Of a DNA stretch of 21,129 nt, positions 405 to 21,129 are shown piece after piece. This stretch comes from a virus. Every line of letters begins with the position of its first letter. Within the stretch, counting starts at the first letter, position 1. The stretch spans positions 1 through 21,129 of the IMG/VR virus record IMGVR_UViG_3300034190_001133, one strand, 5' to 3'. A program made the position numbers and the translations under genes. The notes beneath the pieces were generated by a model, which was not told where the DNA came from, did no database searches, and saw only the letters and a list, made by a program, of their open reading frames with translations.

Positions 405-609
405 TGTTGTTTTTACTTTCTTGCTCAGTTATGTTGCGAACTGTTCTGTGAAAATCTATAACGCTACGGGCTACTTCATCAATCTGTGTTCTGTGTATCC
501 CAATATCACGAAGTTCTAGATCATTTAGTTCGTGAAGTGATTTAATAGTTGCATTCATATTCCGTCTGCGTCTTAGTGTTTCTCGTATTTCTTTAATTTT
601 ATTAAACAT
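397..609 (-). CDS. DUF1127 (YjiS-like) small protein
   Basis: 70-residue basic protein. Residues about 15-47 carry the DUF1127 pattern: an Arg-rich start (RRRR), then SLHELNDLELRDIGIHRTQIDEVAR, matching the family core L..L.D.EL.DIG..R..I. The domain is common in Alphaproteobacteria. At least one bacterial member, CcaF1 of Rhodobacter sphaeroides, binds RNA and affects sRNA maturation and RNA turnover; that is family knowledge and not shown here. The start has an AGAGGA ribosome binding site 8 nt upstream. The gene overlaps the preceding gene by 8 nt and thyX by 8 nt, so the three form a coupled leftward unit. A phage copy may have been captured from the host and could act on host RNA metabolism (inference). 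Confidence 0.8.
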   Translation of the reverse strand: MFNKIKEIRETLRRRRNMNATIKSLHELNDLELRDIGIHRTQIDEVARSVIDFHRTVRNITEQESKNNND

Positions 610-787
610 TTAAAGTTTCCTCTATTTTACTATTTGCATAATACATGTAACTACTTGGTATTCCACTTTCATGACACTTTTTATACACTAGTTCTTTGAA
701 TGTCTTTTCAGTTGAGAAGTCACCAAACATATAAACATCCATGATTATATCATCGATATCTATTGTTATTCCTTTTACTTTACCCAT
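602..787 (-). CDS. Hypothetical 61-residue protein, first gene of the DUF1127-thyX unit
   Basis: I do not recognise a family. The protein is acidic in its N-terminal half (ITIDIDDIIMDVYMFGDF) and has no membrane segment. The start is supported by an AAAGAAAGG-like ribosome binding site and by the 8-nt overlap of its end with the DUF1127 start (ATGTTTAA). Upstream on the minus strand lies the CCTGT-loop hairpin at 841-863, then the divergent TerS gene. The strong terminator at 1374-1419 should separate this unit from the leftward genes further upstream, so it probably has its own leftward promoter between 788 and 890. I could not identify one with confidence. Confidence 0.7.
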   Translation of the reverse strand: MGKVKGITIDIDDIIMDVYMFGDFSTEKTFKELVYKKCHESGIPSSYMYYANSKIEETLNV

Positions 788-796
788 TGTGTTGCC

Positions 797-819
797 TTTC
801 TTTAAGTTCCTTATAGAGA
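797..819 (+). promoter_or_regulatory. Copy 1 of the TAAGTTCCTTATAGRGA element (candidate phage promoter)
   Basis: The core TAAGTTCCTTATAGAGA lies at 803-819, 70 nt before the TerS-like gene and in the same orientation. It matches three other copies in the window (6990-7013 minus, 7326-7348, 9133-9158). The TATAGAGA end resembles the start-site side of T7-family promoters (TATAGGGA), placing a putative start near G816. The flanks TTCTTTA and TAGAGAA can also pair across the 9-nt AGTTCCTTA, so an RNA hairpin is an alternative reading. Confidence 0.6.
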
Positions 820-840
820 AGAGGGTTAATCTCTCTTTTA

Positions 841-863
841 AATCCGACCCCTGTGGTCGGATT
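841..863. repeat. CCTGT-loop hairpin, copy 1
   Basis: Perfect 9-bp inverted repeat AATCCGACC / GGTCGGATT around CCTGT, preceded by CTCTTTTA. It lies in the divergent region between the TerS-like gene (889, +) and the 787 minus-strand gene. It shares loop, stem length and the flanking CTCTTTT(T)AA with the copies at 4664-4686 and 5269-5291. No run of T follows on either strand, so it is not a classical intrinsic terminator. Confidence 0.8.
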
Positions 864-888
864 ACTAAAGTTATAAGAGGTACTAAAT

Positions 889-1281
889 ATGACTAGAGAG
901 GTTCATCCAAACAGCCTTAAAAACTTAGCTCCTTCATTCACCAAAGAGAATGCTCGTGAGATGCAACTGAAATCAGCAGCTTCCCGTAAGGCGTCTAGAG
1001 ATGCTAGAGAAGCCTTAAAGATGAGCATGAAGGATTGGCGTCAGTACAAAGAAGATGTGCTGGATCATGTCGATATGAACTCTTTAGATGTCTTGAAGAT
1101 CCTAATGTTCAAAGCTTTGGACAAAGAGGATTTCGATACTGCTAGTGATCTTGCAGCAAAAGTTGCAGAGTATGAGCAACCAAAACTACAGCGCAGAGAA
1201 CTTCAAATTGAAGAGTTAGGTGCTGAGAGTTTGTCTGATGAAGAGCTTGACAGTAAACTGAGGGCACTGCGAGTTGTGTGA
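889..1281 (+). CDS. Putative terminase small subunit (TerS-like)
   Basis: 130 residues, helical and highly charged. Residues 5-60 resemble the N-terminus of small phage packaging proteins (HPNSLKNLAP, then a Lys/Arg/Ala-rich stretch). Residues 60-110 carry the LDVLKILMFKALDKEDFDTASDLAAKVAEYEQPKLQR region that I associate with terminase small subunits of marine podoviruses. TerS would bind the packaging site and hand DNA to TerL (7362-9014). The ribosome binding site is AAGAGG about 9 nt before the ATG. It is the only + strand gene in the left block, with a promoter-like element at 797-819 and a terminator at 1374-1419, so it is probably expressed with the late genes. Function rests on remembered family pattern, not on a search. 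Confidence 0.6.
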   Translation: MTREVHPNSLKNLAPSFTKENAREMQLKSAASRKASRDAREALKMSMKDWRQYKEDVLDHVDMNSLDVLKILMFKALDKEDFDTASDLAAKVAEYEQPKLQRRELQIEELGAESLSDEELDSKLRALRVV

Positions 1282-1297
1282 GGTTCTATGAGAACCT
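1281..1297 (+). other. Short perfect stem-loop just after the TerS-like gene
   Basis: AGGTTCT / AGAACCT, a 7-bp perfect stem with a 3-nt loop ATG, begins right at the stop codon. No T-run follows, so it is more likely an mRNA 3'-end or stability structure than a terminator. Confidence 0.5.
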
Positions 1298-1303
1298 GAA
1301 AGA

Positions 1304-1362
1304 AAATGCCAGTGCGCTTTGTCGGTTACCAAAAAAAATGCAAGTGCGCTTTGTCGGTTACC
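1304..1362. repeat. Tandem pair of 27-nt direct repeats
   Basis: Copies at 1304-1330 and 1336-1362, period 32, differ at one base. The shared 20-nt core is AGTGCGCTTTGTCGGTTACC, each followed by a run of A. The pair sits between the TerS-like gene and its terminator, in sequence that does not look coding. It could be a duplicated protein-binding site or part of a 3' UTR; nothing in the sequence decides. Confidence 0.85.
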
Positions 1363-1373
1363 GAAAAAACTAT

Positions 1374-1419
1374 AAGAACCCAAAGATTCTCTGTGAGAGT
1401 CTCTGGGTTCTTTTTTTTT
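1374..1419. terminator. Strong bidirectional intrinsic terminator between convergent genes
   Basis: Arms AAGAACCCAAAGA (1374-1386) and TCTCTGGGTTCTT (1400-1412) pair at 12 of 13 positions, with an inner TCTC/GAGA stem extending it. Nine T follow on the + strand (1411-1419). On the minus strand the reverse hairpin is followed by ATAGTTTTTTC. It lies between the + strand TerS-like gene and the minus-strand gene whose stop codon falls inside the T-run, so it can stop transcription from both sides. Confidence 0.9.
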
Positions 1420-1663
1420 ATTTCCATAAGAGTCCGTGGAATCCCTCTGAGGAATCGAACGACTTTATTAGATCTTTGTACATTCCTGGTGACATTGTTA
1501 CTACATCATATCCATCAATGTCTCTATTGAATTGTCTGATAGATGCATAGCCCTGATATTCTCCAGCGTTTTCTATGATAATTGTAAAGTCAAGATCGTC
1601 CCCTGAGTCATCCATGATAACTATCTCAGTAGTCCAGGGTTTTTCTTCTATTGTGAATGGCAT
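1418..1663 (-). CDS. Hypothetical acidic protein, 81 residues
   Basis: No family recognised. The protein alternates charged and hydrophobic residues (TEIVIMDDSGDDLDFTIIIENAGEYQGYASI), suggesting a small beta-rich soluble fold. I chose the ATG at 1663, one nucleotide after the stop of the upstream gene; an in-frame GTG at 1675 would add four residues. The stop codon is embedded in the bidirectional terminator, so this is the last gene of its transcript. Confidence 0.7.
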   Translation of the reverse strand: MPFTIEEKPWTTEIVIMDDSGDDLDFTIIIENAGEYQGYASIRQFNRDIDGYDVVTMSPGMYKDLIKSFDSSEGFHGLLWK

Positions 1664-1664
1664 T

Positions 1665-1916
1665 TTACATCTCACTTACGCCAAGCACACCACCGTTTTC
1701 CCATTCTGCATATAGACCATTAGCATGTAGGATATCATTGATTTTATGATTAACACCAAAATCATCTAGTGCTGCATCGTTTTCACGATAGTAGTCAGCC
1801 CATACAGTGTCATAGTTATCTTCTGCGGAGATTATGAAATCATCATGACCATGATCTATTACAGGTACTCCGATTTTACTAAGTTGATTGAATGCTGTTC
1901 TGTATTTACGTTTCAT
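1665..1916 (-). CDS. Hypothetical protein, 83 residues
   Basis: No family recognised. It has a basic N-terminus (MKRKYRTAFNQL) followed by an acidic, aromatic-rich body with a HGHDD cluster at about residues 22-26. There is no signal peptide or membrane segment. The start is supported by AGAGGA about 8 nt upstream. It ends one nucleotide before the next gene's start, consistent with coupled translation. Confidence 0.7.
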   Translation of the reverse strand: MKRKYRTAFNQLSKIGVPVIDHGHDDFIISAEDNYDTVWADYYRENDAALDDFGVNHKINDILHANGLYAEWENGGVLGVSEM

Positions 1917-1919
1917 TAT

Positions 1920-1985
1920 CTATCCTCTTTGGTTAGCAGCTATGATGATTATCAGTACTGAGAATATGAATACTGCTACGCTCAA
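1920..1985 (-). CDS. Possible 21-residue membrane peptide
   Basis: A TTG start overlaps the TGA stop of the MazG-like gene and opens a 21-codon frame ending at TAG. The product is almost entirely hydrophobic (VAVFIFSVLIIIIAA) with a short polar end, a single potential membrane helix. It fills a gap between two coupled genes. There is no clear ribosome binding site and the start is non-ATG, so this is tentative. Confidence 0.3.
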   Translation of the reverse strand: MSVAVFIFSVLIIIIAANQRG

Positions 1986-2296
1986 CGATCATCACCAGAG
2001 CCACTGAGAGTCCCCTTAGAAGCACGGTTGTGTAATTTAAGTAGGTTACCTGCTGCGAGACTGTCCAGGTCTTCTCCGAGGTAGTGTGCGAGTACTGCTA
2101 CATACCAAAGAACATCTCCTAGTTCTGCTGCAATACCATCATAGGATGCACCATCACGTATACACTTCTTGATTTTATTTGCAACTTCCCCAGCTTCTCC
2201 GCATAGGCCCAATGCTAAATAGGGAATTGCTTCTGACTCTGGGAAGATTGCAGTTTCTCTAGCTTTAGTCTGATATTGATTCATATAGATTGTCAT
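1982..2296 (-). CDS. MazG-like nucleotide pyrophosphohydrolase
   Basis: An all-alpha NTP pyrophosphatase (MazG/dUTPase-like fold) that would hydrolyse nucleoside triphosphates to monophosphates and PPi. Numbered from the chosen start, the metal-binding helices show GEAGE at 33-37 and ELGD at 58-61, the two E-x-x-E/D motifs expected to bind Mg2+. Length (104 residues) fits single-domain MazG-like proteins. I chose ATG 2296 because AAAGGAG lies 9 nt upstream and family members begin near the NQYQ segment. An in-frame ATG at 2338 overlaps the upstream stop as ATGA and cannot be excluded. With ThyX it suggests management of dNTP pools or of the alarmone response; phage MazG substrates vary. Confidence 0.85.
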   Translation of the reverse strand: MTIYMNQYQTKARETAIFPESEAIPYLALGLCGEAGEVANKIKKCIRDGASYDGIAAELGDVLWYVAVLAHYLGEDLDSLAAGNLLKLHNRASKGTLSGSGDDR

Positions 2297-2334
2297 GTCA
2301 GGAAGCTCCTTTCTAGTAGGCCAGTAGGATATTT

Positions 2335-2568
2335 TCATTCAGTCCGGAAAGCTTCGTAGAGTTTCCATTGTGCTTCTGATAGTTTACGAACATCTGAGAT
2401 ATAAAGATCATTACATTCTTCTAGCATTTGAACTACGTTTTTCATAGTTTCTTCTGCTGACTTGATTGCACTTTGCTGAACTTTATTTAGTAACTCATAG
2501 TTCTTTTTATTATCTTGAAGACGTTTATTGAATTCTTTTTGCCATTCTGGGATTTCATCAGTTTTCAT
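2335..2568 (-). CDS. Hypothetical helical protein, 77 residues
   Basis: The sequence is rich in Lys, Glu, Gln and Asn with regularly spaced hydrophobics (about residues 15-60), suggesting a coiled coil or helical bundle. No family recognised. Its start overlaps the stop of the GP88-like gene by one base (TAATG), and its stop lies about 40 nt before the MazG start. Confidence 0.7.
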   Translation of the reverse strand: MKTDEIPEWQKEFNKRLQDNKKNYELLNKVQQSAIKSAEETMKNVVQMLEECNDLYISDVRKLSEAQWKLYEAFRTE

Positions 2569-3203
2569 TAGTACCTCTTTACTTTTTCTATGATTGTATC
2601 TACATCATTGATTTCATAGCACAATCGACAGTCTTGACACTTTTGACCAGTGCAGTTTTGTCTTTCTGCAAACTCATGAGTTAATACATTGTTGAATGTT
2701 TTGTCAAAGTATTTAGGTGGCTTTGACATTACTACACTTTTCTTTGGGTTGCTGTATATAAGGTTTATGTTTTTAGGTTTACTTTGTGTTTTCATCCAAC
2801 GAAACACAAGATCTGTTCGTTTAGTCCACAGAGCAAATCTACACCAAGGATTATCTATAACAATTTTCATCAGGTTGTCTAGGTGTTGCATGTTTATTAG
2901 CTCACCGTGTGCATTGAATCTGAAGATGCTATCTATAATCCTTGGTATTTCTTGTGGTTCTAATGGTCTTGAAGACAGCAAGTCACTATTGCGTTGTAGT
3001 GCTGGAGCCATGTTTTTGCGGAAACCGTCTAGCATTTTATGACTGTAACAGTCCCCACAGATATTATCTGTTTTGTTTTCTATGGCTTTCTTGTGTTGAT
3101 CTATGCAATACTTGTTACTTTTTGTGTTAGTACTTATTGCTTTGAGACCTTGAAGTTTACCTGTCATTACAGATATATGTACTGCGGGTTTAGTCATAGT
3201 CAT
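2568..3203 (-). CDS. GP88-like conserved phage protein with cysteine clusters
   Basis: 211 residues. The pattern C-x2-C-Y (C49, C52, Y53), then RFNAHGELINMQHLDNL (about 95-111) and FALWTKR (123-129), resembles the phage GP88 family. The C-terminus has C184, C189, C192 and C195, a second cysteine cluster. Six or seven cysteines arranged this way suggest bound zinc or an iron-sulphur cluster. Biochemical function is unknown to me. It overlaps the downstream gene by one base and is spaced 4 nt from the upstream one, so it belongs to the leftward operon. Family assignment is from memory of the motif layout. Confidence 0.6.
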   Translation of the reverse strand: MTMTKPAVHISVMTGKLQGLKAISTNTKSNKYCIDQHKKAIENKTDNICGDCYSHKMLDGFRKNMAPALQRNSDLLSSRPLEPQEIPRIIDSIFRFNAHGELINMQHLDNLMKIVIDNPWCRFALWTKRTDLVFRWMKTQSKPKNINLIYSNPKKSVVMSKPPKYFDKTFNNVLTHEFAERQNCTGQKCQDCRLCYEINDVDTIIEKVKRY

Positions 3204-3207
3204 TCCT

Positions 3208-3450
3208 TTATGTGTCTAGTTCCTCTATACTATCATCATCCTCAGATATGAAACCATTGTCTACACCATAGCTTGCAAACAGTGCACCGATTGCTGTGAA
3301 TATCTCGTGCTCTGTGTAGTCTTCATGGCTTTCCATACTTATTTCATACTCATTGTTTGTACCAATCCACATCGTCACATGGAATAGTTCATCAATCCTT
3401 TTAAAGTCATCTTCTTTAGGTTTAGGTTTAAATTCGATGACTTCAGACAT
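3208..3450 (-). CDS. Hypothetical acidic protein, 80 residues
   Basis: No family recognised. The strongly acidic C-terminus (SEDDDSIEELDT) follows a compact region with HVTMWIGTNNEYEISME. I chose ATG 3450 because it overlaps the upstream stop in the 8-nt arrangement ATGTCTGA also used by other pairs in this block; an in-frame ATG at 3477 would add nine residues. An acidic small phage protein could be a DNA mimic or host-enzyme inhibitor, but nothing here shows it. Confidence 0.7.
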   Translation of the reverse strand: MSEVIEFKPKPKEDDFKRIDELFHVTMWIGTNNEYEISMESHEDYTEHEIFTAIGALFASYGVDNGFISEDDDSIEELDT

Positions 3451-3628
3451 CAGGCTGTTCGCCAATATCTTCTGCATAGTTGTTCATACAATCGTGCATA
3501 TCTCTGAGTGTATGGCCTAAGTCTGTGAATAGTATTTCTGCTTCTACACGAGACAAGATTAGTGCTCGTCCTGCAATCTCAATGACTACTTCTCCTTCTG
3601 CTGTCCAGAAGACATTTGATTTATCCAT
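3443..3628 (-). CDS. Hypothetical protein, 61 residues
   Basis: No family recognised. Residues 10-35 (EGEVVIEIAGRALILSRVEAEILFTDLG) look like beta strands followed by an amphipathic helix. It overlaps its upstream neighbour by one base (TAATG) and its downstream neighbour by 8 nt, typical of this operon. Confidence 0.65.
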   Translation of the reverse strand: MDKSNVFWTAEGEVVIEIAGRALILSRVEAEILFTDLGHTLRDMHDCMNNYAEDIGEQPDV

Positions 3629-3840
3629 TAATTGAAACCTCGTAGTTTGATTACGTTGCGAATACGATCTACAGTTGATGCTGAAAGTTTAGAACGAGAT
3701 ACAAACCGACCTGTTTCAACATCCCGTGCTACAGATAGGTAACCTTGGTGGCCTGAGAATGAACCTACTGGTTTACCATAGCGTTTTGTTACACGACGAA
3801 ATTGCAGATTCTGGCGACCGATTGGGTTTACTGTTGTCAT
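3628..3840 (-). CDS. Hypothetical basic protein, 70 residues
   Basis: Rich in Arg, Lys and Ser with few acidic residues (RRVTKRYGKPVG; SRSKLSASTVDRIRNVIKLRG), so it could bind nucleic acid, but no family is recognised. The start has AAAGG-like purines upstream. It is the first gene after the 551-nt gene-poor stretch, so its transcript must start in or pass through the stem-loop cluster there. Confidence 0.7.
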   Translation of the reverse strand: MTTVNPIGRQNLQFRRVTKRYGKPVGSFSGHQGYLSVARDVETGRFVSRSKLSASTVDRIRNVIKLRGFN

Positions 3841-4391
3841 AGTGTTAGCCTTTCTGTGACTAATTTAAGTTAAGATCTTTCTCTAGTAGTTGCAACCATA
3901 ATGTAACCAACTACCCATAGTCCAAATAAAATTGATATATTAAAATGCCTCTTGTTGGAATGGGTCTTGTCGGACCCTCCAAAAATCAGAGTGACCCCTA
4001 AGGGTCACGAAGGATTCTGAAGGAATCCTATAGAGATCTGAAAGATCTCTCTGAGGAATCTTGAAAACCTTTAGGTTTTTGAGACTCCGATTAAAAACAG
4101 GATCCCGCAAGGGATTCTATTTAAAAAACTATGGACCCTGACTGGAAACCTCAGCGCAGCATTACTACGGGGTCTCAACAGCCAGGGGTACAGGGACTTC
4201 AACGAGAACTTCAGCAAGGAGTTCGGATCGGAGTCACCCGTATTAGTTGTCCCAACCGGAGTTTGAGCTTGAAAGGATAAAAGAACCCAGACTCAACAGT
4301 TGGAACAGACAACACTGGGAGGTGTGTTGTATAGAATTGTATGAGCAGTTTAACTGTGTTGCTCAGCACTTTTACATCACGTTGATATATA
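3841..4391. other. 551-nt gene-poor stretch with a stem-loop cluster and a GC-richer segment
   Basis: This lies between two minus-strand genes. From 3962 to 4117 six stem-loops follow each other: 3962-3977 (5 bp), 3991-4008 (GTGACCC / GGGTCAC), 4011-4029 (AGGATTC / GAATCCT), 4032-4050 (AGAGATCT / AGATCTCT), 4064-4079 (AAAACC / GGTTTT) and 4100-4117 (stem closed by GCAA, a GNRA tetraloop). From about 4131 to 4280 the sequence is visibly GC-richer than its surroundings and open in several frames without a ribosome binding site. I do not call a protein here. A structured noncoding RNA, replication element or recombination scar are all possible. Confidence 0.7.
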
Positions 4392-4559
4392 TCACCATTC
4401 CCCATTCATTTGAGCGATAAATTCATCGACAGTTTCACTGTCTGCATTGTTATATGCTGTTTGCATATCATTACGAACATACGATTCTAAAGCATCCATG
4501 TCTAATGCCTCTATGTATTGCTCAATGGCAGCGTCAAGTTCATCTTCACGATACGACAT
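4392..4559 (-). CDS. Hypothetical acidic protein, 55 residues
   Basis: Acidic and probably helical (DELDAAIEQYIEALDMDALESYVRNDMQ). No family recognised. I chose ATG 4559 because AAAGGA lies 8 nt upstream; an in-frame ATG at 4601 lacks a site. It is separated from the SSB gene by about 140 nt holding the second CCTGT-loop hairpin. Confidence 0.65.
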   Translation of the reverse strand: MSYREDELDAAIEQYIEALDMDALESYVRNDMQTAYNNADSETVDEFIAQMNGEW

Positions 4560-4663
4560 ATTTTGTATCCTTTCAAAATGCTGATACCTTACGTATCTCA
4601 CACTCCTAGCAGTAGGAATTTTATAAGCAGTTTATTGAGATGCTTAGCTCGTTACTCTTTTTA

Positions 4664-4686
4664 AATCCGACCCCTGTGGTCGGATT
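4664..4686. repeat. CCTGT-loop hairpin, copy 2
   Basis: Perfect 9-bp stem AATCCGACC / GGTCGGATT with loop CCTGT, preceded on the + strand by CTCTTTTTAA. It is identical in stem and loop to copy 1. It sits between the SSB gene (stop at 4700) and the 4559 gene, i.e. in the minus-strand leader of the latter. Confidence 0.85.
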
Positions 4687-4699
4687 CAGATAGAGGCTG

Positions 4700-5224
4700 T
4701 TAGAACATTGCCTCTAGGTCTTCGTCTTTGACACCTGCAACAGTTGGTGACACACTGTCAAGAAGATCAAAGTCTACACCATCACTGCCGTTGTACTCGA
4801 TAAGATCAGTTACTTGTACAGCTGTGAGGGAGTTGAAGACTGATTCGTTATTGTCACCGTAAGGAGCTTGCCATACGATAACATTAACTGTTGAACCATT
4901 ACCAATAGTTTTAGCGTCCATTGGTTGTTTGTCATTACCAACCACACGAGGCTTACCATTGTCACTGCCATCTTTCCTGAGAGCCCGACGACGAAGTGTC
5001 AGTGTTTCGACACCTTCGTTGTTTTCTCTTACAGGCAAATGGTTATCTTTCCACAGTTTGAGAGTCGCTTCATCTTTAGCACGTAGCTGAATCTCAAATT
5101 GTAATGGTGTAGTGAAAGGGCGACCATTGACTGTGCCTTTACCAATCTGGGGTGTTTCCAGTTTAGGGTAAAAGCATAAAGCGTCTTTGATCATGAAGTT
5201 ACGGGCTTTTTCAAGTTTAGTCAT
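4700..5224 (-). CDS. Single-stranded DNA-binding protein, T7 gp2.5-like
   Basis: 174 residues. It would coat single-stranded DNA at the phage replication fork and recruit polymerase and helicase. Evidence is the central OB-fold-like beta-rich region (for example NGSTVNVIVWQAPYG, about 108-122), the segment FNSLTAVQVTDLIEY seen in phage gp2.5-type proteins, and an acidic tail ending in phenylalanine (DEDLEAMF). The acidic tail with terminal Phe is the partner-binding feature of bacterial and T7-type SSBs. The ribosome binding site AAAGGAAC precedes the start. CCTGT-loop hairpins lie both upstream and downstream of the gene. Confidence 0.78.
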   Translation of the reverse strand: MTKLEKARNFMIKDALCFYPKLETPQIGKGTVNGRPFTTPLQFEIQLRAKDEATLKLWKDNHLPVRENNEGVETLTLRRRALRKDGSDNGKPRVVGNDKQPMDAKTIGNGSTVNVIVWQAPYGDNNESVFNSLTAVQVTDLIEYNGSDGVDFDLLDSVSPTVAGVKDEDLEAMF

Positions 5225-5268
5225 TTTAGTTCCTTTACATGGATTGTGAGAGGATATCTCTCTTTTTA

Positions 5269-5291
5269 AATCGATCCCCTGTGGGTCGATT
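5269..5291. repeat. CCTGT-loop hairpin, copy 3 (different stem)
   Basis: Arms AATCGATCC and GGGTCGATT around CCTGT pair at all nine positions if the + strand is RNA, with one U-G wobble. The stem differs from copies 1 and 2 at several positions on both arms while pairing is kept. It follows CTCTCTTTTTAA and a GAGAG/CTCTC mini-hairpin (5248-5262). It lies about 45 nt before the SSB start and overlaps the stop of the 35-residue gene. Confidence 0.8.
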
Positions 5292-5397
5292 ACTTTGAGT
5301 TATTATCATAGTATTCTTCAATGAACTTAATCCATTCATAAGCATACCAGATAGAGAAGATTAGAAATACTGCTATCAGACCTGAGAGTAATAGCAT
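5290..5397 (-). CDS. Small single-pass membrane protein, 35 residues
   Basis: An N-terminal hydrophobic helix (LLLSGLIAVFLIFSIWYAY, residues 2-20) is followed by an acidic, aromatic tail (EWIKFIEEYYDNNSK). This is a typical short phage inner-membrane protein with a cytoplasmic or periplasmic tail. The ribosome binding site is weak and no family is recognised. It fills the gap between the 5414 gene and the SSB leader. Confidence 0.5.
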   Translation of the reverse strand: MLLLSGLIAVFLIFSIWYAYEWIKFIEEYYDNNSK

Positions 5398-5413
5398 TTC
5401 AATATGATGCGTA

Positions 5414-5623
5414 TCATGATCCAAGTAGCTCATCTAAACGTCTATTGACAATAGTTGTCTCAGTCTCTAGTGTATGCTTGTTGCACATCTCATCAAACAC
5501 AGAAGCGGGACACTCATTAAACAAGTGTTCATAAATGTCTTCATCTTCTACATGGTCAGGCACTTCATACTCTGGATACCAAGTATCTGTGCGTGTAAGT
5601 TTTAGTCGTATTGTTCTAGGCAT
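5414..5623 (-). CDS. Hypothetical protein, 69 residues
   Basis: The N-terminus TIRLKLTRTDTWYPEYEVPDHVEDEDIYEHLF looks like a small beta strand plus acidic helix. No family recognised. It overlaps its upstream neighbour by one base (TAATG). Confidence 0.65.
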   Translation of the reverse strand: MPRTIRLKLTRTDTWYPEYEVPDHVEDEDIYEHLFNECPASVFDEMCNKHTLETETTIVNRRLDELLGS

Positions 5624-5814
5624 TAGTTAGCTCCTTTGTTCAGTTCCTTTAGCCTAGTCTCAGCATGTCTCAAGTCATCATAAAGGTTCTCAAGTTCTCC
5701 GAGAACCCAGGCGGGTCTGAGACCATGACCATAATTTTTATGTAAGTCATTGATCTCACTTTTATAGATTGAGATACTGGTCTCAGCCAGTTCTATCTCT
5801 CCAGACATACTCAT
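5623..5814 (-). CDS. Hypothetical coiled-coil protein, 63 residues
   Basis: Mostly helical with evenly spaced Leu/Ile and many charged residues (LAETSISIYKSEINDLHK; LGELENLYDDLRHAETRLKEL). No family recognised. Its start overlaps the previous stop as ATGA; an in-frame ATG two codons later (5808) is possible. GGGGGAA upstream can serve as ribosome binding site. Confidence 0.65.
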   Translation of the reverse strand: MSMSGEIELAETSISIYKSEINDLHKNYGHGLRPAWVLGELENLYDDLRHAETRLKELNKGAN

Positions 5815-5981
5815 TGGTTCCCCCTATATAGTTGACATGACAAGTAACCGACAGACTCCTGCATTACTAGGAAGTCTTGCATCCGCTCCAGACAGTCTGT
5901 ACCTGTGAGGTTGTAATCAAGTATGTGATTAATTCCACAATCTTGGTACAGTGTTAAGACAAGTATGTAGACTTTTATCAT
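5811..5981 (-). CDS. Hypothetical protein, 56 residues
   Basis: The reading frame is joined to both neighbours by ATGA overlaps (5978-5981 and 5811-5814), strong support for a real gene despite its size. The product has three cysteines and begins with a hydrophobic strand (MIKVYILVLTLYQD). No family recognised. Confidence 0.6.
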   Translation of the reverse strand: MIKVYILVLTLYQDCGINHILDYNLTGTDCLERMQDFLVMQESVGYLSCQLYRGNQ

Positions 5982-6091
5982 GAAAGATACCCAAGAACTT
6001 CTTCTACATAGTACGTAGCCTTTGCTTTAGTCATTGATGGGTATTTTGCAATAGTATTAGCTATTGCTTTTTCTTTTGAGATTTTAGTCAT
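5978..6091 (-). CDS. Hypothetical basic peptide, 37 residues
   Basis: It starts with an 8-nt overlap (ATGACTAA) with the upstream gene and ends with ATGA shared with the downstream gene. The sequence is Lys/Ala rich with SKEKAIANTIAKYPSMTKAKATYYVEEVL, which could form a small helix-turn-helix-like fold. No family assigned. Confidence 0.55.
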   Translation of the reverse strand: MTKISKEKAIANTIAKYPSMTKAKATYYVEEVLGYLS

Positions 6092-6350
6092 TTTCCACAT
6101 CCTTACGTGTTTCAATTGTATTACGAACATTCTGAAGAGTTTCTATCAAACTGTCCAGATTGTTGTCGTAACTTAGTATAACCCAGTCATGAGAGTTTTT
6201 AGGCAAGATGGCAATCTCATGTATAATTACAATGTCACTACCATCAGCTTGAAACTCGCTGTGTTGAGCTATAGATACCGCATGAGAACCATGTGTTACT
6301 CTTACGTTATTGAGTTTGAATTTTGTTTGAAAGCCATTGTCTTCCATCAT
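6084..6350 (-). CDS. Hypothetical protein, 88 residues
   Basis: Looks like a small beta-sheet protein with a C-terminal helix (LDSLIETLQNVRNTIETRKD). No family recognised. AAAGGG lies upstream of the tandem ATGATG start. The ATG at 6350 overlaps the upstream stop; the second ATG (6347) is equally possible. Confidence 0.7.
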   Translation of the reverse strand: MMEDNGFQTKFKLNNVRVTHGSHAVSIAQHSEFQADGSDIVIIHEIAILPKNSHDWVILSYDNNLDSLIETLQNVRNTIETRKDVEND

Positions 6351-6520
6351 TTAACCCTTTCTCCAGAGCATTGAACATTATGTACCACATATCCAGAATC
6401 TTCCCAACCTGAGATGATGTCAGGTATTCTGGTTGATTCTATGTGGTACGATACTTGGTGATTCACATCGTCCTTGTAGGAGTAGGACTTGAAGATGTTC
6501 ATTTTGTATTCAAGTTTCAT
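6347..6520 (-). CDS. Hypothetical protein, 57 residues
   Basis: AAAGG lies about 8 nt upstream, with an ATGA overlap with the preceding gene and overlap of its stop with the next start. The product is rich in aromatic residues (EYKMNIFKSYSYKDD; SGWEDSGYVVHNVQC) and has one cysteine. No family recognised. Confidence 0.6.
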   Translation of the reverse strand: MKLEYKMNIFKSYSYKDDVNHQVSYHIESTRIPDIISGWEDSGYVVHNVQCSGERVK

Positions 6521-6678
6521 TTGATTGACCTTTCAATAGGTGATGTTTCGATGAATTCTACATGATATCCACCGAAATCTTTTACGAATACACCTACACC
6601 ATTATTGTCGATGTAGAATATTTTTGCCACTACCCATGTCAGCATAGCAGCACATAGAAGCATAGATAGTTTAGGCAT
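6517..6678 (-). CDS. Small exported or membrane protein, 53 residues; first gene of the leftward block
   Basis: An N-terminal hydrophobic segment (LSMLLCAAMLTWVVAKIFYI, residues 4-23) follows a single Lys, suggesting a membrane anchor or signal, with a short hydrophilic domain after it. I chose the second of two close ATG codons because AAAGGA lies 8 nt before it; the first, at 6684, is too near the site. The gene opens the leftward operon, about 315 nt downstream of the minus-strand promoter-like element at 6990-7013. Confidence 0.55.
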   Translation of the reverse strand: MPKLSMLLCAAMLTWVVAKIFYIDNNGVGVFVKDFGGYHVEFIETSPIERSIK

Positions 6679-6786
6679 TGGCATATCCTTTCAAGATATA
6701 TGTCGGACCCCACACCTCTGTGAGATTCATGAGACACCAAGAGAACCTTGGAGTCAGTACAGGGACAACCCCTATACTTCTTCTTA

Positions 6787-6809
6787 GATCTGGCCCCTGT
6801 GGACAGATC
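6787..6809. repeat. CCTGT-loop hairpin, copy 4 (diverged)
   Basis: Arms GATCTGGCC and GGACAGATC around CCTGT pair at eight of nine positions (one G/A mismatch). The stem sequence is again unlike the other copies while the loop is unchanged. It lies in the leader of the leftward operon, about 110 nt before its first gene. Confidence 0.7.
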
Positions 6810-6840
6810 ACATACTATCCGAACCAATCATGTAGAGGTC

Positions 6841-6966
6841 TGAGAGATACTGAGAGATACTGAGAGATACTGAGAGATACTGTACATTGGTCTAGACTGA
6901 GAGATACTGAGAGATACTGAGAGATAGACTAGGAGATCTTATAGTATAGATATAGATATATAGTAA
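6841..6966. repeat. 10-bp iteron array with adjacent AT-rich tract (candidate origin)
   Basis: Four perfect head-to-tail copies of TGAGAGATAC (6841-6880), a 17-nt spacer, then three more (6898-6927, the last with one change at its end). About 10 nt further lies an AT-rich run (6938-6966, CTTATAGTATAGATATAGAT and on). Iterons one helical turn apart beside an easily melted tract, next to a leftward promoter-like element, fit a replication origin; they could also be regulator-binding sites or a repetitive mRNA leader. The repeats are plain in the sequence; the role is inferred. Confidence 0.85.
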
Positions 6967-6989: not shown

Positions 6990-7013
6990 TCTCCCTATAA
7001 GGAACTTAGAGAA
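6990..7013 (-). promoter_or_regulatory. Copy 2 of the TAAGTTCCTTATAGRGA element, facing left
   Basis: Read on the minus strand: TTCTC, then TAAGTTCCTTATAGGGA, then GA. The putative start is at about G6995. It faces the leftward operon and is the only copy on the minus strand. Flanks TTCTCTA and TAGGGAG pair fully across AGTTCCTTA when U-G wobbles are allowed. Confidence 0.6.
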
Positions 7014-7325: not shown

Positions 7326-7348
7326 TTTCTAAGTTCCTTATAGGGACA
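7326..7348 (+). promoter_or_regulatory. Copy 3 of the TAAGTTCCTTATAGRGA element, upstream of TerL
   Basis: TTTC followed by TAAGTTCCTTATAGGGA and CA. A start at G7343 would leave a 19-nt leader before the TerL ATG, with GAGG as ribosome binding site. This copy has the weakest inverted-repeat flanks of the four. Confidence 0.65.
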
Positions 7349-9132: not shown

Positions 9133-9158
9133 TTCTCTAAGTTCCTTATAGAGAATAG
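9133..9158 (+). promoter_or_regulatory. Copy 4 of the TAAGTTCCTTATAGRGA element, upstream of the 9237 gene
   Basis: TTCTC, then TAAGTTCCTTATAGAGA, then A. The arms TTCTCTA and TAGAGAA are a perfect 7-bp inverted repeat around AGTTCCTTA, the best of the four copies. The putative start is near G9151. It would drive the 9237 gene and the virion genes that follow. Confidence 0.62.
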
Positions 9159-18793: not shown

Positions 18794-21129
18794 ATGGGAT
18801 TTAGAGACTCAGACACCATAATCGAACCAATTGATGATGGGGGAGCTTTTGACTCAGGTGAAGGCTCTACAAGTTCTACAAGTGAATCTGCAGCTAATGC
18901 TTTACAAGCAGCTAACTCTGCTGCAGCTGCTCTTGTTAGTGAAAACAATGCAGCTGCCGATGTTGTATTAACTAACGCTGACGTTGTATTAACTCATGCA
19001 GATGTTGTTTTAACCAACGCGGATCTTGCTTTAACTAATGCCGATGTTGTATTAACTAACGCTGACGTTGTATTAGCTGAGGCAGATAAAGTGCAAACCG
19101 GACTTGATCGCGCAGCCGTAGCAGCCGACCTAGTGCTAACCAATCAAGATACAATAGACACAGCCGCTAATCTTGTTCTAACTAATGCAGATGTTGTGTT
19201 AACTCATGCTGACGTGGTGTTAGCGGAGGCTGACAAAGTGCAGACTGGTCTTGATCGCATAGCCACTAACGCTGACGTGGTATTGACTCATGCAGATGTT
19301 GTTCTAACTAATGCTGATGTTGTACTGGCCGAAGCAGATAAAGTACAAACAGGGCTTGATCGTATAGCTACCAATGCTGATGTTGTATCAACTAATGCGG
19401 ATGTTGTATCAACTAACGCTGACGTTTTATTAGCTGACGCGGATAGAGTACAAACCGGACTTGATCGTGTAGCTACTGCTGCTGATGTTGTTTCAACTAA
19501 CGCTGACGTTGTACTGACAAATGCTGACGTTGTGAGCGCAGGTAACTCAGTTACTGCTGCCGCTCTTTCAGCAACAGCTTCAGCAACAGCAAAAACAGCA
19601 GCTGAGACAGCAAAAACAGCAGCCGAAACAGCAAAAACAGCAGCCGAGACAGCTGAGACAAACGCTGAAACAGCAGAAACTAATGCTGAAACAGCTGAAA
19701 CAAATGCAGCTGGAAGTGCCACTGCTAGTTCAAACAGTGCCACTAGTGCAGCAACCTCTGCATCAACTGCTACGACTAAGGCATCTGAGGCATCTACATC
19801 TGAGACAAACGCTTTGGCAAGTAAGAATGCAGCGGCTATCTCTGAGACTAATGCAAGCAACTCAGCTACTGCATCAGCTAACTCTGCTAGTTCTGCAGCC
19901 ACTTCTGAAACTAACGCAGCAACATCTGCATCAACGGCTTCTTCTCAAGCCAGCACAGCGACAACCAAGGCATCTGAGGCATCTACCTCTGCCACAAGTG
20001 CAGCAACTTCTGCATCTACAGCAACAACTAAGGCGTCTGAAGCATCTGCTTCTGCTACAGGTGCAGCCACTTCTGCCTCTAACTCTGCATCTTCTGCGAC
20101 AGCCGCACAGACAGCTGAAACAAATGCTGAGACAGCTGAAACAAACGCAGCAGCTTCTGCAACAACTGCGACTACTAAGGCTGGGGAGTCTCTCACATCT
20201 GCGAACTCTTCTGCGTCTTCTGCAACAACTGCTGAAGCAGCTAAGGATGCTGCTCTTGCTGCATTAGATTCATTTGACGATAGGTACCTAGGGGCTAAAT
20301 CCTCTGACCCAACAGTAGATAACGATGGTAATGCTTTAATCTCAGGCGCTTTGTATTACAATACAACCGACGATGCAATGAAAGTTTACACAGGATCTGC
20401 ATGGGTTGCGGCTTATGCATCACTTGCAGGTACTCTTCTTATAGCAAATAACTTAAATGATCTTGACAATGCAGTGTCTGCTAGATCAAACCTTGGGCTA
20501 GTTATTGGGACTAATGTTCAAGCGTTTTCCGCTATCCTTGCAGCCACTACTGCATCATACACAACTGCATTGAATACTAAACTTTCAGGTGTTGAAACTG
20601 GTGCTACTGCTGACCAAACTGGTGCAGAAATTAAAACAGCTTATCAGGCAGAGGCAAACGCTTTTACTGATAGTCTTTACACTAAACTAGATAACATCGA
20701 AGCCAGTGCTGATGTAACAGATACTGCTAATGTGGTATCATCTTTAACTGCAGGGTCTAATATAACCATTGCAGCTGATGGTACAATATCTGGATCTGCT
20801 GCTTACAGCTTACCCACATCTTCTGCCACTGTACTTGGTGGTGTTAAGGTTGGGACTAACTTGTCTATAAGCGGTACAGGTGTTCTGTCTTCTGCTAACA
20901 CTACATACACAGTGGGCGATGGTGGACTTACTCAAAGGAATTTTACAACAACATTAAAAGATAAACTAGATGGTGTTGCTGCAGGTGCAACTAACACTAT
21001 TGGAAATGCTACCCACACTGGCGAAGTCACTGGTTCTGGTGCATTGACAATATCTGACAATGTGGTTGATGAAGCCAATCTTAAAGTTTCAAATTCGCCT
21101 ACCAACGGTTACTTTTTATCAGCACAATC
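18794..21129 (+). CDS. Repetitive tail fibre protein (C-terminus beyond window edge)
   Basis: 778 codons are visible. Order: a short N-terminus (1-50); heptad repeats of NADVVLT type with four LAEADKVQTGLDR modules (about 53-250); an Ala/Ser/Thr-rich fibre repeat with KTAAETA, TNAETAE and STATTKASEAS units (about 251-491); then FDDRYLGAKSSDP, GALYYNTTDDAMKVYTGSAW and KLSGVETGATA / KLDGVAAGATN modules common in phage fibres. Trimeric fibre for host recognition; the receptor-binding end lies outside the window. AGGAGG precedes the ATG at 18794. Confidence 0.88.
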   Translation, partial: MGFRDSDTIIEPIDDGGAFDSGEGSTSSTSESAANALQAANSAAAALVSENNAAADVVLTNADVVLTHADVVLTNADLALTNADVVLTNADVVLAEADKVQTGLDRAAVAADLVLTNQDTIDTAANLVLTNADVVLTHADVVLAEADKVQTGLDRIATNADVVLTHADVVLTNADVVLAEADKVQTGLDRIATNADVVSTNADVVSTNADVLLADADRVQTGLDRVATAADVVSTNADVVLTNADVVSAGNSVTAAALSATASATAKTAAETAKTAAETAKTAAETAETNAETAETNAETAETNAAGSATASSNSATSAATSASTATTKASEASTSETNALASKNAAAISETNASNSATASANSASSAATSETNAATSASTASSQASTATTKASEASTSATSAATSASTATTKASEASASATGAATSASNSASSATAAQTAETNAETAETNAAASATTATTKAGESLTSANSSASSATTAEAAKDAALAALDSFDDRYLGAKSSDPTVDNDGNALISGALYYNTTDDAMKVYTGSAWVAAYASLAGTLLIANNLNDLDNAVSARSNLGLVIGTNVQAFSAILAATTASYTTALNTKLSGVETGATADQTGAEIKTAYQAEANAFTDSLYTKLDNIEASADVTDTANVVSSLTAGSNITIAADGTISGSAAYSLPTSSATVLGGVKVGTNLSISGTGVLSSANTTYTVGDGGLTQRNFTTTLKDKLDGVAAGATNTIGNATHTGEVTGSGALTISDNVVDEANLKVSNSPTNGYFLSAQ
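18950..19543 (+). repeat. Heptad (21-bp) tandem repeats in the tail fibre gene
   Basis: Units encoding N/H-A-D-V-V-L-T repeat in tandem, interrupted by four modules encoding LAEADKVQTGLDR starting at about 19073, 19220, 19325 and 19430. The spacings are 147, 105 and 105 bp (49, 35 and 35 residues), all multiples of seven residues. Confidence 0.85.
19544..20266 (+). repeat. Ala/Ser/Thr-rich low-complexity repeat in the tail fibre gene
   Basis: Tandem units such as ACAGCAGCCGAGACAGC and GAAACAAATGC-like words encode KTAAETA, TNAETAE, SATSAATSAS and TATTKASEAS. The repetition opens long false frames on both strands. It probably forms a flexible or coiled fibre shaft. Confidence 0.8.

Follow-up and report, generated by a model that had tools for sequence, protein, structure and literature searches.

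What maintains a small family of hairpins in a phage genome when the loop never changes and the stem does? The question is raised by a stretch of viral DNA of 21,129 nucleotides (IMG/VR record IMGVR_UViG_3300034190_001133; here called the window), which is a 21-kb piece of a marine phage related to Roseobacter phage CRP-7, with only scattered similarity at the DNA level. The genes for the terminase small subunit (TerS), TerL, portal, scaffold and capsid lie on its + strand, and those for a single-stranded-DNA-binding protein (SSB), MazG and many small proteins on its minus strand. Four hairpins with a 9-bp stem and the loop CCTGT stand ahead of minus-strand genes, and they very probably serve as promoters, folded as DNA hairpins in the template strand, for a compact virion RNA polymerase (RNAP) of the type of phage N4, here in phages outside the N4 family. 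What is understood of DNA hairpin promoters and virion RNAPs comes, to our knowledge, mostly from N4 and its family.

Results

Four hairpins with one loop. A sequence-only reading of the window had described the four hairpins, two of them identical, one with a single T.G pair and one with a single G.A mismatch, three of them behind a common lead-in sequence and all 40 to 110 nt 5' of minus-strand genes, and all of this proved correct (Table 1). Sites 1 to 4 lie about 54, 105, 45 and 109 nt, respectively, from the start codons at 787, 4559, 5224 and 6678. The window has four copies of the core CCCCTGTGG, all of them on the + strand. In 100 first-order Markov resamplings, the mean number of CCYGT hairpins was 0.13 compared to the 4 observed, and none of the resamplings held more than two copies of a 5-nt-loop hairpin of any type; the extended pattern had a mean of 0.35 and a maximum of 3 in dinucleotide shuffles. 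Intrinsic terminators were ruled out by the absence of a T run after the hairpin on both strands, and no Rfam family matched in the window at the gathering score.

Conservation and covariation in relatives. An exact pattern scan of IMG/VR returned 61 stretches, where the related contigs had paired stems and many of the rest were chance matches, and further scans gave 62 distinct contexts, from which 27 representatives with less than 85% identity were drawn, including one chance match. Many loci with the raw pattern were chance occurrences in unrelated contigs and were dropped by their lack of similarity to the group, with one leftover judged by eye. The five near-complete relatives (57-60 kb) each carry exactly four sites, which share one strand and keep their gene positions: site 1 separates TerS from the early operon (kept at the homologous place in 5/5), sites 2 and 3 sit on either side of the SSB gene, and site 4 heads the minus-strand block. 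All loops read CCTGT or CCCGT, and the loop is unchanged in three relatives (G004, G005 and G010) in which site 3 has a bulged T. Across 23 distinct sites, standard pairs fill 96.6% of the stem cells, both sides change at six of the nine pairs, and 32 cells show a double change compared to 7.6 +/- 2.2 after shuffling; when the partner was slid by 1-3 columns as a control, such cells fell to at most 5. The tie to gene positions and the covariation, both named earlier as checks to be made in relatives, were thus found, and the covariation, together with the strand bias of the odd pairs, backs the earlier proposal that selection maintains the paired structure around a fixed loop.

The folding strand. 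Read on the CCYGT strand, the 17 stem types together contain 14 odd pairs: G.T or T.G in eight cases, G.A or A.G in five, and a terminal A.C in the last. On the opposite strand, the wobbles and G.A pairs become A.C and C.T mismatches. Thirteen of the 14 favor the CCYGT strand (P = 0.002, a value that ignores shared descent), and it is therefore most probably this strand, the template for the minus-strand genes, that folds. DNA folding energies sum to -116.7 kcal/mol for this strand and -106.5 kcal/mol for the other, and, type by type, the CCYGT strand leads by 1.1 kcal/mol or more in 7 of the 17 and nowhere trails by more than 0.5 kcal/mol. Under RNA parameters, it is the strand opposite CCYGT on which the G.A variants would fold better, a mild argument for DNA. 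The preference of the wobble for the + strand, remarked on earlier for copy 3, therefore extends to the whole family, and its conflict with the direction of the genes vanishes, and is indeed expected, because the + strand would act as template DNA.

These results bear directly on the earlier proposal that the hairpins act as RNA, whether bound by a protein, processed by an RNase or used as a translational operator. Minus-strand mRNA hairpins, acting as processing sites or translational operators that are, for example, bound by SSB or cut by RNase III, would suit sites that lie between minus-strand genes and in two cases flank SSB, and CRP-7 has hairpins around its SSB gene with wobbles that fit the mRNA strand. 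In the minus-strand mRNAs of the present family, however, most odd pairs would be A.C or C.U, a bias of 13:1 toward the opposite strand; in addition, 9 bp make a short stem for RNase III, the T..AAAGA box described below keeps its distance from the hairpin and not from the start codon, and site 1 is an operon head instead of a gap between two minus-strand genes. We consider this explanation improbable. RNA hairpins in + strand transcripts, late or antisense, such as a leader of the TerS mRNA, agree with the strand of the wobbles, and site 1 does lie within the leader of the TerS transcript expected from the T7-like promoter at 804. Sites 2 to 4, however, have no + strand promoter directly before them, a terminator-like + strand hairpin with a T run follows TerS at about 1380-1421, and RNA at these sites would be antisense within the minus-strand block. 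The G.A variants would, as RNA, fold better on the other strand, and the strong conservation outside the hairpin would lie upstream of it on the + strand, leaving the + strand transcripts a highly improbable explanation. What stands of the sequence-only reading is a selected structure with a fixed loop, and what finds no support is its nature as an RNA element.

A start-like box at a fixed distance. Conservation outside the hairpin peaks at offsets 12-19 from the loop center, toward the minus-strand genes, as T..AAAGA, with a G at offset 18 in 25 of the 27 listed representatives (the chance match included in the 27) and at sites 2 to 4 of the window, and the information falls at offset 20. By its sequence, the box resembles a site of transcription initiation on the minus strand, which also speaks against an RNA element, and the predicted RNAs would begin with GAG.. 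or GAA.. and run for about 40-105 nt to the start codons of SSB and other genes. In N4, a hairpin script of similar design picked out candidates for P1 and P2, which have a G at offset 11. The restriction to one strand, the nearness to SSB and to the divergent center of the genome, and selection on a single-strand structure would also be expected of single-strand DNA replication sites, such as priming or origin hairpins, which happened to be placed between genes. We give very little credence to this explanation, as all sites in the window are 45-110 nt before a minus-strand start codon, a purine start-like box follows at a fixed distance, and the four sites hold fixed gene positions in every relative.

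Probable promoters of the T7-like polymerase. These genomes encode a 764-amino-acid single-subunit T7-like RNAP (PF00940, 8e-54). A 13-bp linear consensus, AAGTTCCTTATAG followed by purines, occurs five times per genome without a hairpin, on the TerS, TerL, portal and tail genes, with one copy pointing toward the minus-strand block, and because these promoters are T7-like in form, they probably belong to the 764-amino-acid enzyme. The hairpins were thereby ruled out as promoters of the T7-like RNAP: with classical promoters of its own in place, the hairpins belong to another class, although both are (the hairpins putatively) promoters of phage polymerases within the same genomes. The T7-like promoters vary by lineage, being TATATACCCCTTATAG in G015/G018, CTAGTCCCTATAGG in G019 and AAGTTCCTTATAG in the group of the window (L214-L216, L223, L226-L228).

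Host sigma-70 promoters were rejected, with 21 sites found and 24.3 expected. The same lack of enrichment counts against double-stranded operators for a dyad-binding repressor beside host-type early promoters, which inverted repeats ahead of early genes might otherwise suggest; here, the arms vary and the asymmetric center is fixed, which is the reverse of most operators, and the wobbles are strand biased, so that we give this explanation almost no weight.

A second polymerase. In 5/5 near-complete relatives, the last gene of the virion-protein block encodes a second polymerase of about 1,170-1,230 amino acids, and its place behind genes for large virion proteins, one of them carrying a transglycosylase domain, suggests that it is packaged in the virion and ejected. 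It has a weak match to the phage RNA polymerase family phrog_414 (4e-7 for the member in G003 and 2e-4 for that in G001), and it carries in order QGYQGR (QGR), NAYxDGKTxG, RxxxKxxxMTxGYG and IYDA, which are the T/DxxGR motif and motifs A, B and C of single-subunit RNAPs. The spacing within motif B is that of T7 RNAP. In 38 members that are 23-48% identical to the first, the invariant residues fall mostly in motifs A, B and C (D, K, Y, D), and 69 loci with relatives were recovered when a wider profile was used for scanning; the GR motif is altered in the distant member L155. The L155 sequence (DNHN01000098.1), filed as a Bacteroidetes metagenome-assembled genome, is a phage piece with both polymerases in the same convergent order.

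A tblastn search of the GenBank phage collection with the second polymerase gave no match at E 0.01, and phmmer and hmmsearch against the PDB did not find the N4 virion RNAP (vRNAP), but profile-profile and fold searches did. In hhalign comparisons with nine Schitoviridae virion polymerases, E was 7.4e-6 with close relatives and 1.4e-10 with a diverse set (probability, 97%; motifs in register), compared to control values of 0.6 for the second polymerase against the T7-like RNAP of the same phages, 0.075 for the N4 family against that RNAP, and 0.047 and 0.46 with another large virion protein. AlphaFold modeled the polymerase core with a predicted local distance difference test (pLDDT) score of 90 from 38 diverse sequences and the full protein with a pLDDT of 45 from 18 similar sequences. 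The core model matches structures of T7 RNAP, mitochondrial RNAP and the N4 mini-vRNAP (promoter complexes); the N4 promoter complexes have the highest query TM-score among the matches listed (0.52), the T7 and mitochondrial RNAPs have better E-values than N4, and the best viral match is the virion RNAP of the N4-like Vibrio phage phi50-12. By the hhalign values and the highest query TM-score, the second polymerase is closer to the N4 vRNAP than to the T7-like RNAP.

Discussion

We propose that the + strand, as the template for the minus-strand genes, would extrude a DNA hairpin with a 9-bp stem and a 5-nt loop, and that the single-subunit RNAP of the N4 virion type, encoded at the end of the structural block, would recognize it through the fixed CCYGT loop and the CC/GG closing pairs, the remaining stem bases mainly having to pair. 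RNA would start near the G located 18 nt from the loop center (GATT-T..AAA/GA, with the stroke at the predicted start). The virion polymerase would enter the cell together with the DNA and read the minus-strand genes, among them those for SSB, small proteins, DNA polymerase, primase and the T7-like RNAP, which may then use the five AAGTTCCTTATAG promoters for the late genes.

The ejected N4 polymerase reads hairpin promoters in the template strand, in which the conserved loop and the inner-stem bases are required, while the remaining stem bases need only to pair, and the hairpins are extruded by gyrase-driven supercoiling, with the host SSB keeping the template hairpin accessible (PMC4496689). 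In N4-like Pseudomonas phages, three hairpins of this kind occur, with 4-5-nt stems and 3-nt loops (PMC3715699). With the P1-P3 promoters of N4 and the Schitoviridae, which are read by gp50 (PMC4496689, PMC3715699), the present hairpins share a place on the template strand (judged here indirectly, from the bias of the odd pairs), fixed loop and inner-stem bases, an outer stem that is free to vary but paired, a small number of copies before early genes, and a G at a fixed distance downstream. The second polymerase, in turn, resembles the RNAP domain of N4 gp50 (PDB 3c2p, 3c3l and 3c46) in its T/DxxGR-like motif, motif A (DGxTNGP in N4), motif B (RxxxKxxxxxxxYG) and motif C ((F/Y)D(G/A)), in profile and fold matches, and in being encoded by the gene that closes the virion-protein block.

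The differences set these phages apart from the N4 family. The second polymerase has about 1,190 amino acids compared to 3,500 in gp50, with a Tyr at the position of Glu557 in N4 motif A; it thus departs from the description of an enzyme of ~3,500 amino acids with N- and C-terminal domains and the motif ExDGxxxG (PMC10654107), having YxDGKTxG instead. The T7-like RNAP is a single chain instead of the heterodimeric RNAPII that, along with shared hallmark genes, marks the Schitoviridae, and TerL is closest to that of CRP-7, so that we do not place these phages in the Schitoviridae.

Several observations weigh against hairpin promoters read by the second polymerase. The hairpins do not have the geometry of N4 promoters, which consists of a 5-7-bp stem, a 3-nt loop with a central purine and a start 11 nt from the loop center: here, the stem has 9 bp, the 5-nt loop CCYGT has a pyrimidine at its center on the template strand, and the G lies at 18 and not at 11, preceded by an AT-rich T..AAA. 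At site 1 of the subgroup to which the window belongs, the G is at offset 17 and not 18, a weaker A/G conservation is seen upstream of the hairpin as well (offsets -14 and -13), and the terminal pair AGTTCGGCC/GGTCGAACC favors the opposite strand. The gene for the second polymerase lies outside the 21-kb window and was found in relatives only. The two CRP-7 hairpins that flank the SSB gene (L001 328-352 and 1128-1154; fixed core CCTGTAATGGG) have wobbles that favor the mRNA strand, opposite to the family in the window. When distant genomes were searched blindly for recurrent hairpins, no such family emerged; the hairpins in these genomes described below were found by inspecting the flanks of SSB and TerS, partly after the fact, and one of them, the site-1 hairpin of the CTTGT lineage, sits between two facing T7-like promoters.

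CRP-7 (MK613349) is the closest cultured relative, with a TerL that is 62% identical, a shared capsid region and a T7-like RNAP with large proteins adjoining. It differs in that its small genes run in the direction of TerL and that the hairpins around SSB have the loop TGTAATG on the mRNA strand; no CCYGT hairpins were found in CRP-7, and its gp33 has a motif C-like IHDAL but gave no significant match. The CCYGT family is likewise absent from twelve records with more distant polymerases. One distant lineage has, at the site-1 position before TerS, 7-bp hairpins with the template loop CTTGT, a G at offset 18 and stems that covary (ccgcag, ccgagg and acgaga), with a second copy about 250 nt ahead of SSB in G015, and G019 has four same-direction copies of CCACG-CAAG-CGTGTC (loop CTTG), two of which are just before SSB and TerS. 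These hairpins, partly recognized in hindsight, support a co-divergence of polymerase and hairpin. Because the site-1 hairpin of the CTTGT lineage lies between two facing T7-like promoters, it may also have a role as RNA late in infection.

It seems reasonably probable, with less confidence than we attach to the promoters themselves, that these phages form a lineage outside the Schitoviridae in which early and late transcription are both phage driven: a compact virion polymerase (~1,190 amino acids) would use long, lineage-specific hairpins (CCYGT, CTTGT or CTTG) early and the T7-like polymerase linear promoters late, with little or no need for the host RNAP and with polymerase and loops co-diverging in marine phages. 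There would then be, besides the N4 family, a second, compact and diverse lineage (69 loci in one scan), with a virion polymerase about one-third the size of that of N4 and with the candidate promoters of both polymerases located within the same genomes. The natural variants in stem, loop and spacing would be useful for testing how such enzymes read folded DNA, the promoters offer a route to predicting the early genes of uncultured phages, and strand-biased wobbles can tell which DNA strand folds.

Other features of the window

Table 1. Positions of the hairpins, their downstream boxes, adjacent genes and T7-like promoters in the window
Feature	Position	Strand	Sequence or match	Remarks
Site 1 hairpin	841..863	+	AATCCGACC-CCTGT-GGTCGGATT	Between TerS (+) and large minus-strand early operon
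Site 2 hairpin	4664..4686	+	AATCCGACC-CCTGT-GGTCGGATT	14 nt past SSB gene, ahead of minus-strand gene at 4559
Site 3 hairpin	5269..5291	+	AATCGATCC-CCTGT-GGGTCGATT	One T.G pair; ahead of SSB gene
Site 4 hairpin	6787..6809	+	GATCTGGCC-CCTGT-GGACAGATC	One G.A pair; head of minus-strand block
Site 1 downstream box	833..840	-	TAAAAGAG	One base lost, G at offset 17
Site 2 downstream box	4656..4663	-	TAAAAAGA	Putative +1 G at 4657
Site 3 downstream box	5261..5268	-	TAAAAAGA	Putative +1 G at 5262
Site 4 downstream box	6779..6786	-	TAAGAAGA	Putative +1 G at 6780
First gene downstream of site 1	602..787	-		Hypothetical protein, 61 amino acids
Gene downstream of site 2	4392..4559	-		Hypothetical protein, about 55 amino acids
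Gp2.5-like SSB	4700..5224	-	phrog_112, 8e-9	Downstream of site 3
Small gene downstream of site 4	6517..6678	-		Hypothetical protein, 53 amino acids
TerS	889..1281	+	phrog_74	Divergent from site 1
T7-like promoter	804..816	+	AAGTTCCTTATAG	Upstream of TerS
T7-like promoter	6995..7007	-	AAGTTCCTTATAG	Faces minus-strand block
T7-like promoter	7331..7343	+	AAGTTCCTTATAG	Upstream of TerL
T7-like promoter	9139..9151	+	AAGTTCCTTATAG	Upstream of portal region

Other repeats were seen along the window. Two copies of a repeat with TTTGTCGGTTACC follow TerS (1299-1362), and the repeat is also found after or near TerS in G015, G018 and G019; it is a possible packaging start site. The tandem decamer CTGAGAGATA forms two short blocks at 6839-6936, in the part of the divergent region that separates site 4 from the minus-strand T7-like promoter. 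A small hairpin, TATATCTTGAAAGGATATA, is repeated at the ribosome-binding sites of several minus-strand genes in G001 (41398, 41749 and 42136), and a stretch at about 6690-6712 of the window resembles it. Finally, a long gene region at 18900-20300 consists of 21-nt repeats that encode 7-residue repeats rich in A, T, D and N, and it is likely to represent a fiber or spike with coiled repeats.

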